DNA of 64,000 bases, taken from Pirellulaceae bacterium (GTDB lineage Bacteria > Planctomycetota > Planctomycetia > Pirellulales > Pirellulaceae). Positions 24,516 to 28,867 of the stretch are shown piece by piece. Position 1 is the first letter of the stretch, and each line of letters starts with the position of its first letter. The DNA is taken from positions 89,273 to 153,272 of the forward strand of contig JADYZV010000185.1 in NCBI GenBank assembly GCA_020852965.1. The letters run 5' to 3'. The notes below the pieces were generated by a model. That model ran no database searches. It saw only the letters and a list, made by a program, of their open reading frames with translations, and had not been told where the DNA came from. The translations under genes and the position numbers were made by a program.

Positions 24516-24966
24516 GGTGTTGTCAAAGTGCTAAACGAATCGTGGTGGGGTTAAGGCTGAGCATCGCTCTGGTGCTCTACCCACATTTCAATTGAGGGCA
24601 GTGGACGAAGCCTGCGGTCCGATTGAATCGTTAACCATTTGGGACTCGTAACCTCGTCCACGACAACCAACCCCAGAATCGAATAGGGTTGAAGTACCAG
24701 CACCTTTGTCACAGTCGTCATGGCTTATCTATTCCACAGCTTCTGCTTAGCCTGGACAAAGCATTGTAAAAGAAAACACACGAATTTGTCTGGCATTTGT
24801 ATTCGATAACTAGCATTGGAAACGCATGCATGGATGGGGTCGTTTCTTGGCGCATAGGATTATCGAATCTTCCAAATTCGGTGTGGCGGTCTTAGCTCCG
24901 AGTCCCATCGCGCGACCCAACCTGGGTCGTTGACAAGGGTTTCGAAGTTTTTCAAGGATGAATAAA
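24516..24966. other. Intergenic region between ftsY and the porin gene
   Basis: This 450-bp gap holds one degenerate copy of the GTGGACGAG...CTCGTCCAC repeat family (about 24600-24664). The remainder is A+T-richer sequence upstream of the porin gene and probably includes its promoter and leader. I found no RNA gene or small ORF with support. Confidence 0.5.
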
Positions 24967-26343
24967 ATGAAGATCACTAAGTGGGCGCTCTCTGCAGCGA
25001 TCGCTGCGACGTGCATCGGTGCGTCGGCTTTCGCAGAGGGGCCAATTCAAAATGTTAGCACAGACTATAGCTACTATGCTCAGTCGCCGGCACCGGTAAC
25101 CTCTGGAGTTGCCAATCGCGAACAGTATTCTGCGGTAATACCTGCAGCATGCGCTTGTGGCGACTCGCCAGTGAGCAATTGTGACGATGCCTTTGGGAGC
25201 GTCGGCTGCGATGGCAGCGTGCTTGCCTGTGACGGCAATGGTTGTGATGGGGCATGTGGAGCTGGTGCAGCACCTTGGACGCTTTTCTCAAAGCCGGTCG
25301 CTGGTTTCACGGTCGGGGGCTGGACCAACGTGGGCTACCATACCGCCAATAACGCCGGCTTGGGGCTGCTGAATAATGGCGTTCCAGCCAACTTCAATAA
25401 CTATGCGGACCATGTGCAACTACAACAACAATGGTTGTACGCTGAAAAAGTTGCCGACGGCAGCAACGGCTTGGGGTTCGGCGGTCGCATCGATTACTTG
25501 TACGGTACGGATGGGCCCGACACTCAGGCCTTCGGTATCCCCAACAATCACTGGGATAACAGTTGGGACCATGGAGGCGCCTATGGTCACGCCATACCAC
25601 AACTCTATGCTGAAGCAGCTTATGGCAAGTTATCCGTGAAGGCGGGACATTTCTTCACGATTATTGGCCACGAAACCGTGGCCGCGACGGGCAACTTCTT
25701 CTACAGCCGCCAGTTCACGATGTACAACGCGGAACCGTTTACGCATACTGGTGCACTGACGCAGTACAAACTGAATGACGACACCACCATGTGGAATGGA
25801 TATGTCACAGGTTTTGATAGTGGTTTCGAGGACAATGGTGATGCCTACATCGGCGGCTTCTCGCGCAAGCTGAGCGATCGCTCGAACTTGATCTATACCA
25901 ATGCATGGGGACGCTTTAATGACAAGCTGATGATCAATGGCAATCATGTTGCCGAGCGCGGTCAACTCCACAGCATGGTCTTCAGCTACGCAGTAACGGA
26001 CAAGTTGAATTACATCAACCAAAACGACTATATGTACACGGAGGATGCAGCGGGCACCAGTGTTCGCAATACGTTTAGCTCGATCCACTATCTGTTGTAC
26101 AACGTCAACGACTGCGTTGCATTGGGAAGTCGATCGGAATGGTTCAACTTCTCTAGTGGACTTCAGAACATTCACAATTCGGACATCTTGAACCAAACAT
26201 TTGGTGTCAACTACCGCCACAACGCCAACCTGGTCTTCCGGCCCGAAGTGCGTTGGGTGTGGGACAAGGACACCGTGGGTGTGAATGAGAACGGCAAGTC
26301 GAGCCAGGCCTTCTTCGGTACCGACATGGTCATGACCTTCTAA
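24967..26343 (+). CDS. OmpL-like outer-membrane beta-barrel porin with Cys-rich N-terminal segment
   Basis: The start is taken at ATG 24967, because AAGGA lies 8 nt before it; the ORF track uses ATG 24958, which overlaps that AAGGA. A signal peptide (KWALSAAIAATCIGASAFA) is followed by a segment with seven Cys in about 37 residues (ACACGD, SNCDD, GCDGS, ACDGNGCDGACG). A beta-barrel then carries alternating aromatic and polar strands (GFTVGGWTNVGYHT, VQLQQQWLYAEK, GFGGRIDYLYGTD, YGKLSVKAGHFF, NLVFRPEVRWVWDKD). It ends in AFFGTDMVMTF, with the terminal Phe expected by BAM. It looks like the planctomycete OmpL-like porin family. The Cys-rich linker is unusual and could form disulfides or bind metal. 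A terminator follows. Confidence 0.88.
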   Translation: MKITKWALSAAIAATCIGASAFAEGPIQNVSTDYSYYAQSPAPVTSGVANREQYSAVIPAACACGDSPVSNCDDAFGSVGCDGSVLACDGNGCDGACGAGAAPWTLFSKPVAGFTVGGWTNVGYHTANNAGLGLLNNGVPANFNNYADHVQLQQQWLYAEKVADGSNGLGFGGRIDYLYGTDGPDTQAFGIPNNHWDNSWDHGGAYGHAIPQLYAEAAYGKLSVKAGHFFTIIGHETVAATGNFFYSRQFTMYNAEPFTHTGALTQYKLNDDTTMWNGYVTGFDSGFEDNGDAYIGGFSRKLSDRSNLIYTNAWGRFNDKLMINGNHVAERGQLHSMVFSYAVTDKLNYINQNDYMYTEDAAGTSVRNTFSSIHYLLYNVNDCVALGSRSEWFNFSSGLQNIHNSDILNQTFGVNYRHNANLVFRPEVRWVWDKDTVGVNENGKSSQAFFGTDMVMTF

Positions 26344-26385: not shown

Positions 26386-26421
26386 ACGGCCAGCAAGCTC
26401 TCGTTTGCTGGCCGTTTTTTC
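26386..26421 (+). terminator. Intrinsic terminator after porin gene
   Basis: ACGGCCAGCAA at 26386-26396 pairs perfectly with TTGCTGGCCGT at 26405-26415 around an 8-nt loop and runs into TTTTTTCG. It lies 43 bp after the porin stop. Confidence 0.92.
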
Positions 26422-26714
26422 GTTTCTGCACAAATACGTGCATATTTAGCGTCTCACCGGTGGGGCACAGCGAGCTAGTAGGCAGTTATGCCTAACGAAC
26501 AGGCAGCCACGCGAACAATACGTGCATTTTCGAGTATTGTCGACGCGATCGCTATAAAAACCATAAATTCTTGTAGGTGTAAACCAAGCCTTTGCGAGCA
26601 CTCCTTAGTTGTAAACCAGGCCTTTGAAACGACTTACACCTTCATATCACCGACACTTATACACCCACAGGTACAATAACTGCTTTTGAATTTACCCAAT
26701 CGAGCTGCTTAAGT
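26422..26714. other. Intergenic, no gene seen
   Basis: The stretch holds a partial CACCGGTGGGG repeat near 26455 and two similar phrases, TGTAAACCAAGCCTTTG near 26578 and TGTAAACCAGGCCTTTG near 26609. The second pair is an 18-nt direct repeat 31 bp apart. It may be part of the regulatory region of the candidate RNA that follows. Confidence 0.45.
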
Positions 26715-26916
26715 CTCGACTGAGGAAGCTCTGGTCGCATGTCAGGACTTCCCAACGTGGCGAAAGGACTAGTGAAAGCGAGTTGGCACTCGGTACTTGC
26801 GGCTTCGGCTATCGCACTTCTAGGTGGCGTAAGCGACCGCAAACCATGGTACTACCCAAGAAGTTGCCTGGGGCAATCGGCTTCGGCTGATGCCGCTCCA
26901 GGCAGCTTTTTTAGAA
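26715..26916 (+). ncRNA. Candidate structured small RNA with intrinsic terminator
   Basis: About 200 nt fold into successive hairpins by hand. GGAAGCTCTGG pairs with GTCAGGACTTCC with one mismatch. CGAGT-TGGC-ACTCG follows. A three-way region can form in which TTGCGG pairs with the later CCGCAA and encloses GCTATCGCAC/GTGGCGTAAGC. The 3' end is a long hairpin, GTTGCCTGGGGCAATCGGC-TTCG-GCTGATGCC...CCAGGCAGC, ending in TTTTTT. AGCTGC just upstream (about 26704) could pair with GCAGCT at the 3' end. No reading frame fits. I compared it mentally with RNase P, tmRNA, SRP and 6S cores and found no match, so the class is unknown. Confidence 0.45.
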
Positions 26917-27220
26917 AAGAGGTTTTCTCCGCGAGTTTTTCGCTAGGAATACTCTACTCCTTCGGCTCACAACCGAGCCCGAAGGTGCCCCGCATGGCCC
27001 TGCGACGAGTGTCCGCCCACTCGTCTGGGGCGGGGTATCTTCATCTTTGCCAGAGCTCCCGGTCAATTGTCTTATTGACAAAGCGCGAATGGACGTTTGC
27101 AGAGGTCGTGGAGCTGTTACGATAGGAGCGAAACGTCCTGGTTTCATTTGGATCGCATGGAAAATGAAGCTCGACATTTTAGAAATCGCCAGATGCTTAG
27201 CATTACTACGGAGTCGCCTC

Positions 27221-28867
27221 ATGACCGTCTTTCGCTTTTTTGTTTTGGTTTGCGTACTGAGCATGAGTTTCTCAGGGCTGTCGGCCCAGGAGCTCGAACT
27301 GCAACTCCGTAATCAACATCCGATATCGGAAGGTGCCGATCGATTCTATCGGGAGACGCACAACGAAACATGGCAGCCTGCTCAAACGGCGGTGATCGTG
27401 TGCGATATGTGGGATGCGCATCATTGCGTCAATGCCGTTCGTCGTGGGGCGGAGTTGGCACCGCGCATTGATGCGTTCGTGCGTGCAATGCGTTCGCGCG
27501 GGGCGACGATCATTCATGCACCGAGCAGTTGTATGGAATACTACGCTCAACACCCCGCACGGCTCAGGGCCCAAGCTACGCCGCTGGTCGAGTCCATGCC
27601 GGCTGACATCGAAAACTGGTGCAATCAAATCCCCGCAGAAGAAGCTGCGACCTATCCACTCGACCAGTCTGCGGGTGGTGAAGACGACGACCCCGACGAG
27701 CACCGCCGGTGGGCACAGCGACTGGAAGCCAGTGGACGAAACCCGCGATCACCCTGGCAAGCGCAAACGGCGGCGATCGCCATCGATCCCAAGCAGGACT
27801 ACCTTAGCGACAGTGGACCTGAGATCTGGAGCATTCTCGCCGAGCGCGGAATATCCAATGTAATTCTAGCTGGCGTACATACCAACATGTGCGTGTTGGG
27901 ACGCCCATTTGGTTTGAGGCGTTTGGTGATGGGGGGCAAAAACGTCGTGCTCGCTCGCGACTTGACGGATACCATGTATGACCCGCAGGCCTGGCCCTAC
28001 GCCAATCACTTCACGGGAACCGACCTAATCATCAGCCACATCGAGCGCTACGTCTGCCCTACAATTTCAAGCGACCAGGTGCTGGGAGGGCAGGAGTTCC
28101 GCTACGCGAGCGACCGACGCCCGCGCCTAGTTATGCTAATTGCCGAGGACGAGTACAAGACCGAAACTACTTTGCCAGTTTTTGCGGCCAAACATCTCAG
28201 CCATAATTTCCGCGTGACCACTTGTTACGCACGCGAGTCGGATCCGTCGAAGTTGGTCGGAATCGAAGACGTCGCTTCGGCGGATGCATTATTGGTGAGC
28301 GTCCGACGTCGCGCTTTGCCCACGCGCGACCTCGAATTGGTGCGCGAGTTCGCGGCGCGCGGCAAGCCGATGATTGGCATCCGTACTGCCAGCCATGCGT
28401 TTTCGTTGCGAAAAGGGGAACCGCCCACCGGCTTCGACGTCTGGCCTGAATTTGACGCCGAGGTTTGGGGAGGAAGTTATAGCGGACATCATGCCAATAA
28501 CTTGTCTACTACGCTCGAACTTGATGCCAGTGCCATGGCGCATCCCATTGTGGCCGCTGCTGGACTTACCTCGGGCTTCAAACCAGGTGGCTCGCTGTAC
28601 AACACAGCCCCCTTGTTACCTGGGACGGAGTTGCTGCTCGTCGGCAGCGTCCCCAATGATGAAACGCCACAACCGCTGGCGTGGACCTTTGTGCGCAATG
28701 ATGGCGGCCGTTCGTTCTATACTTCGCTGGGGCATATCGACGATTTTGCACAAGCCGAGTTTGAGACTTTGCTGTCGGCTGCAATCCACTGGGCGTGTGA
28801 CTTGGAACTTCCCGCATTGGCTCAAGTCGAAACCCAGAACACGCGCTATGCCAGCGGCGGGAGCTGA
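27221..28867 (+). CDS. Secreted isochorismatase-like hydrolase fused to ThuA-like domain
   Basis: The start is at ATG 27221, 58 codons inside the track ORF, where a signal peptide begins (MTVFRFFVLVCVLSMSFSGLSAQ). Residues about 30-290 are a cysteine hydrolase of the isochorismatase fold, with the catalytic Asp in VIVCDMWDAHH and the nucleophile Cys in GVHTNMCVLGRP. Residues about 305-545 are ThuA-like, a class I amidotransferase-like fold (RPRLVMLIAEDEYKTETTLP, GIRTASHAFSL, WGGSYSGHHAN, FYTSLGHIDDF). Both domain types occur separately in planctomycetes. Here they form one exported polypeptide. The substrate is unknown, and an amide or sugar-derived compound is only a guess. Confidence 0.85.
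   Translation: MTVFRFFVLVCVLSMSFSGLSAQELELQLRNQHPISEGADRFYRETHNETWQPAQTAVIVCDMWDAHHCVNAVRRGAELAPRIDAFVRAMRSRGATIIHAPSSCMEYYAQHPARLRAQATPLVESMPADIENWCNQIPAEEAATYPLDQSAGGEDDDPDEHRRWAQRLEASGRNPRSPWQAQTAAIAIDPKQDYLSDSGPEIWSILAERGISNVILAGVHTNMCVLGRPFGLRRLVMGGKNVVLARDLTDTMYDPQAWPYANHFTGTDLIISHIERYVCPTISSDQVLGGQEFRYASDRRPRLVMLIAEDEYKTETTLPVFAAKHLSHNFRVTTCYARESDPSKLVGIEDVASADALLVSVRRRALPTRDLELVREFAARGKPMIGIRTASHAFSLRKGEPPTGFDVWPEFDAEVWGGSYSGHHANNLSTTLELDASAMAHPIVAAAGLTSGFKPGGSLYNTAPLLPGTELLLVGSVPNDETPQPLAWTFVRNDGGRSFYTSLGHIDDFAQAEFETLLSAAIHWACDLELPALAQVETQNTRYASGGS

Follow-up and report, generated by a model that had tools for sequence, protein, structure and literature searches.

Does the intergenic region between a BBP2 porin gene (24958–26343; Pfam PF07642) and an isochorismatase-ThuA gene (27221–28867; assigned by Pfam) encode a structured RNA, and if so, where does it begin and end and what might it do? 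We addressed this in the window, by which we mean the whole 64,000-nt stretch of DNA that was analysed; all features located below lie on its + strand. An earlier note had placed an unassigned structured RNA with its own terminator at 26715–26916. An unassigned RNA is indeed predicted here; however, its boundaries differ, the conserved RNA spanning 26852–27045, such that the last 65 nt of the proposed stretch form its 5' domain while the first ~135 nt have neither a fold signal nor a credible relative.

Fold signal and boundaries

When compared with dinucleotide shuffles, 26715–26916 folded with a z-score of -1.99 (8/200 shuffles equally stable), though not through several stable hairpins distributed over 200 nt, as had been suggested: the final hairpin (26855–26914) scored z -5.25 vs. 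z +1.05 for 26715–26853 alone, which is less stable than most shuffles, and the fold signal of the stretch is therefore that of one hairpin with a T-run. This strong hairpin and its T-run (26861–26912) are as first described, but the structure is not the RNA's own terminator; it is instead P0 (26858–26912; 17 pairs, T-run at 26907–26912), a hairpin in the 5' domain of a longer RNA and not its end. Two identical copies of CGGCTTCGGCT were likewise present, at 26800–26810 and 26878–26888. The suggested 6-nt pairing of the ends (AGCTGC/GCAGCT; 26703–26708 with 26902–26907) is feasible; however, the hairpin already ties up its 3' partner, and chance alone would produce matches of 6 nt. Nor is the stretch devoid of open reading frames, as it is crossed by a 128-codon frame (26739–27125), which had no Pfam match and looks accidental.

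The view that the stretch is not RNase P, tmRNA, SRP or 6S RNA held up in the proposed Rfam scan, with no family at the gathering threshold. At E≤10, the sole match (CyaR, E 0.38) was a chance one on the terminator of the upstream porin gene (26386–26420), a hairpin that parts the porin from the RNA and has a similar counterpart 3' of the porin in congener L099. Searching 26715–26916 by blastn gave matches at E≤0.1 per genome in 40 of 241 family genomes, near the chance level and scattered over coding genes (e.g. mutS), and none in a plasmid collection. The conservation and covariation that were to be sought in relatives are missing from the first ~135 nt and strong in the part downstream. A weak sigma70-like promoter at 26650–26677, together with the hairpin and its T-run, would fit a stand-alone RNA spanning 26715–26916; with no fold signal and no homologue beyond chance-level matches for its first ~135 nt in the 241 family genomes, we regard such an RNA as very improbable.

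A conserved structured RNA in the Pirellulales

The isochorismatase gene offered no synteny, since its neighbours differ among the relatives examined; the ftsY-porin gene order, which is kept in relatives, was informative instead. Congeners carry amtB and then glnK (P-II) 3' of the porin, in the order ftsY-porin-amtB-RNA-glnK. Both amtB and glnK are missing from the window, where the isochorismatase-ThuA gene, which adjoins the RNA at none of the other examined loci, occupies the place of glnK. The RNA was first detected when a blastn comparison of the window's intergenic region with congener loci returned four matching loci.

Based on the fold, the congener alignment and a module formed by a sequence box and P0, we delimited the whole conserved RNA at 26852–27045 (-99.7 kcal/mol, z -7.03, 0/200 shuffles equally stable). 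It begins with an unpaired CUACCC box (26852–26857), which is followed by P0, SL1 (26960–26984; CUUC GGCUC, loop, GAGCC C GAAG) and SL2 (26981–27042), a long hairpin with the end GGGGUAUCUUC. In congeners, P0 sits just 3' of amtB, between that gene and the rest of the RNA (clearest in L103), and its T-run is present in the window's genus and absent in most other genera. The box, in the form CUACC[CU], precedes a P0 hairpin at 45/66 loci, and it occurred in only 4 downstream control stretches of equal length. The strongest conservation (two hairpins and an invariant loop) lies 3' of the end first proposed, ~40 nt beyond P0 at 26960–27040. In most relatives, SL2 ends in a terminator-like GGGGU(A/U)UUUU. 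Its apical loop is CCGCCU in 66/67 sequences (46/47, and 20/20 further ones); the window copy is the sole exception, its loop (UCCGCC, 27012–27017) lacking the U found in the other 66/66.

We built two covariance models, R1 from eight sequences and R2 from 47, which cover the 3' part of the RNA (26949–27051 in the window). The window copy belongs to the family by a full-length match with both hairpins, its 90.8 bits with R1 being the score of one of that model's own sequences. R1 matched 159/241 family genomes, almost always with a single, full-length copy, and R2 matched 221/397 genomes of the order (84/145 genera), with no matches outside the Pirellulales in a phylum-wide sample. Covariation was strong: 23 of the 30 pairs change on both sides among 46 distinct sequences, including all 13 pairs of the SL2 upper helix. 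The covariation value was 163 cells, shuffles gave 51, and 0/500 of them equalled the real alignment on any of five measures. Sliding the structure by 1–3 columns reduced the paired fraction from 94% to 35–54%, and copies without amtB (n=20) showed covariation again. Rfam 15 contained no family for the RNA, either in the window (E≤10) or in 14 relatives (E≤5). We conclude from alignment and folding that this is a structured RNA conserved within the order Pirellulales, ~195–230 nt in length, composed of the CUACCC box, P0, SL1 and a terminator-like SL2 with a CCGCCU loop.

Copy number departs from one in several places. One genome of family f3 (G286) had four matches to the RNA model, several genomes of family f8 had two to three, and at one locus (L245, G035:C12) the amtB-RNA-glnK unit occurs twice, 7.1 kb apart and with equal scores, owing either to a recent tandem duplication or to the assembly. 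We also considered and rejected 6S RNA (RF00013), which had no match in the window's genome (G000) or 14 congeners; its matches in other genera were at other loci. By Rfam match, 6S is thus absent from the whole window genus though related genera have one, and a diverged 6S may escape Rfam.

Neighbouring genes and sigma54-type promoters

At 38/47 loci, amtB lies directly upstream of the RNA on the same strand, with a gap of 0 to ~430 nt, and glnK is next in most. We scored sigma54-type sites as TGGCAC-N5-TTGC with GG and GC required and two mismatches at most. Such a site precedes amtB in 34/37 cases and occurs inside amtB in 2/37; only two weak two-mismatch sites fell between amtB and the RNA, within the 200 nt leading up to the latter, and glnK mostly has no sigma54 site of its own. 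At loci without an upstream amtB, a perfect site was located 128–184 nt before the RNA in 5/9, and among 20 further such loci (17 of them from one genus) it was perfect in 13 and had one mismatch in 6, perfect sites being almost never seen in shuffles. In these 20 loci, glnK adjoins the RNA in only 2. A sigma54-type promoter, as would be expected of a nitrogen small RNA, is accordingly a property of the family as a whole, but not of the window copy.

Across the 241 family genomes, 125 had both the RNA and an AmtB of this type, 34 only the RNA, 43 only the AmtB (a count that includes some RNAs missed owing to strict filters, as in G016, where the RNA was detected later) and 39 neither. In genus g78, ~20 genomes have an AmtB of the family type with the RNA undetected, reflecting either loss or a form that the model misses. 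The gene 3' of the RNA varies in kind and strand, some being on the opposite strand, and we found no constant same-strand downstream gene of the sort that a glnK leader or riboswitch would have. Taken together, the variable next gene, the RNA's own sigma54-type sites and its presence without amtB speak for an independent function of the RNA rather than a leader role for the next gene. From promoter sequence and neighbours alone, we infer that the RNA is under nitrogen control.

Proposed role and alternative readings

We consider it likely that this is a sigma54-controlled nitrogen small RNA of the Pirellulales, probably acting in trans through its C-rich loop. When nitrogen is limiting, the RNA would arise either by release from the amtB transcript, at its 3' end, or by separate transcription, and its exposed C-rich loop would pair with ribosome-binding regions rich in G. 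In other families, small RNAs established to pair with such regions look like this, their invariant, C-rich loop being exposed on a stem that covaries freely. More speculatively, and with what we judge an even chance of being right, it may be an order-wide RNA regulator that exists in two genetic forms, the amtB transcript 3' end and a free-standing sigma54-driven gene, with structure and CCGCCU held fixed.

In most genomes, the RNA is placed such that it could act in cis on amtB or glnK, either as an attenuator or riboswitch-like leader setting read-through into glnK or as a 3' UTR element controlling amtB. Its position between the two genes, the terminator-like SL2 and the rarity of a separate sigma54 site for glnK all fit such an operon element, as does the order sigma54 site-RNA-glnK without amtB at four loci (L258, L261, L248 and L276). 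However, a whole genus (17 sampled species) has the RNA behind its own sigma54-type site with neither amtB nor glnK adjoining it, the next genes vary and are in some cases on the opposite strand, and 34 genomes retain the RNA without such an amtB. Switching between SL1 and SL2 as an antiterminator was considered and rejected, because the aligned sequences, judged by eye, do not consistently allow the alternative pairing. We thus find a cis-acting element unlikely.

Two other readings appear less probable still. The RNA could be a mere terminator pair of amtB with no regulatory role, given the T-run of P0 in the window's genus and the SL2 end in most relatives, yet termination would not require the CUACCC box, an additional hairpin or invariance of the apical loop, nor would a terminator need a sigma54-type promoter that serves it without an intervening gene, and we hold this to be highly improbable. 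The invariance of loop and box, with no universal mRNA partner found, could alternatively mean that one of them binds a protein and not mRNA, in a 6S-like or regulator-titrating sponge RNA; this too seems quite improbable, as the architecture is not 6S-like, the order has genuine 6S candidates apart from this RNA and a protein partner is without support. The trans-acting nitrogen small RNA is our preferred reading; what weighs against it includes the 43 family genomes that have such an AmtB but no detected RNA and the limited generality of the pairing between loop and amtB.

A candidate target in amtB

For this small RNA, the candidate target in the window's genus would be the amtB start region (AAAGGCGGA), with up to 7 pairs. 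At L099, L100, L103 and L280 this region contains AGGCGGA, which is perfectly complementary to UCCGCCU, and at L098 it contains AGGCGG. Among the 6-mers that precede amtB starts, AAGGCG ranks first (11/36; 0/32 before glnK and 0/16 before the porin), and AGGCG[AG] precedes 13/524 ORFs, 9 of those 13 being amtB. The energies of loop duplexes were only marginally different for amtB start regions than for other ORFs (p 0.03), and many lineages have only AAAGGC before amtB, which allows 4–5 pairs with the loop at best. By these counts and energies, amtB is a candidate and not a demonstrated target in the window's genus, and the predicted pairing is not general across lineages. In some amtB 5' regions (e.g. 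L252, L265 and L254), the GAAAGGC at the start follows closely on CCUUCUG or a related sequence, and the two may form a small hairpin that would hide the ribosome-binding site.

Relation to known systems

NrsZ is a stand-alone, sigma54/NtrC-dependent nitrogen small RNA of Pseudomonas, and the Pirellulales RNA resembles it where it stands alone behind a sigma54-type promoter; compared by description, the two differ in phylum, and the Pirellulales RNA has no Rfam match at all. GlnZ, a small RNA of Enterobacteriaceae that arises from the 3' UTR of the glutamine synthetase mRNA and is produced under nitrogen limitation (PMC9731577), is the nearest known system in kind. The shared feature is a nitrogen-gene 3' UTR as the source of a small RNA under nitrogen limitation, which was established for GlnZ and is predicted for the Pirellulales RNA. 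In contrast to GlnZ, the Pirellulales RNA would have amtB and not glnA as its parent, differs in structure and taxon, and also occurs as a putative gene of its own with its own sigma54-type promoter.

For the idea of pairing with amtB, the nearest system is the icaR mRNA of Staphylococcus aureus, in which the 5' and 3' UTRs pair (PMC3868564). There, as would be the case for amtB in the window's genus, a 3' UTR element is complementary to the ribosome-binding region of its own mRNA; however, the Pirellulales RNA is well complementary in some lineages only and persists without amtB. The glutamine-responsive glnA RNA (RF01739; PMC2864571) is likewise a structured RNA near nitrogen genes, including those for PII and ammonium transporters, but the Pirellulales RNA is located 3' of amtB or stands by itself and did not match it or any other Rfam family even at E≤10. 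By its entry in Table 1 of the same study, the Rhodopirellula-1 motif occurs in Proteobacteria and Planctomycetes, is probably cis-regulatory, is marked ambiguous as to 'RNA?' and is not in Rfam (PMC2864571). As a planctomycete motif it may be the same element, a comparison that extends to the table entry only; the entry lists Proteobacteria too, whereas the Pirellulales RNA was confined to its order in our sample.

In the open-access literature, we found no paper on planctomycete small regulatory RNAs bearing on this RNA, and none studying it. The element is conserved across the whole order and would offer a link between an RNA and ammonium uptake in these bacteria that can be put to the test, and the covariance model is ready for annotating amtB-glnK intergenic regions in hundreds of genomes. 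The loci without amtB provide natural examples in which a 3' UTR element stands by itself with a promoter of its own and, if the two-form reading is true, would make up a natural series from 3' UTR element to independent small RNA, or the reverse.

State of the window copy

The genome that carries the window has neither a family-type amtB nor glnK anywhere; its best Amt is 35% identical and on another contig, and its only P-II is 42% identical. The window copy thus has no amtB upstream, nor does it have a sigma54-type promoter of its own, with no correctly (GG/GC) spaced site within 350 nt. A sigma54-like TGGCAC-N7-TTGC element does occur at 26784–26800, inside the stretch originally proposed as the RNA and 165 nt before the start of the model match, where intact copies without amtB have their site (about -128 to -184). 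Its spacing is two bases too wide, which sigma54 sites are not known to tolerate, and it may be a damaged promoter. Alignment of 26430–26850 with congener amtB 5' regions gave no significant match and thus no support for reading that segment as an amtB promoter remnant. The loop has become CCGCC-C with loss of the U of CCGCCU, and the U-tract is interrupted (UAUCUUC).

Given the loss of amtB and glnK, the lost loop base and the misspaced promoter-like element, the window copy probably has weak activity or is in decay. Whether it is already a dead relic left by deletion of amtB and glnK is a narrower matter, which concerns this copy only. The absence of the family-type genes, the altered loop and U-tract and the want of a correctly spaced sigma54 site all fit a relic; against this, both stems are intact and folding stability is very high (z -5.3; z -7.0 for the whole of 26852–27045), and the rate of decay cannot be gauged without a close relative. 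We put the relic at slightly less than an even chance.

Two sets of repeats lie between the porin terminator and the RNA. One, AATACGTGCATATT/AATACGTGCATTTT, occupies 26433–26446 and 26517–26530, 84 nt apart. The other, at 26572–26644, comprises two 21-nt direct repeats (TAGGTGTAAACCAAGCCTTTG/TAGTTGTAAACCAGGCCTTTG; 32 nt from start to start) flanked by TGTAGGTGTAA/TTACACCTTCA; these have no further close copy in the genome and look like a paired operator site.
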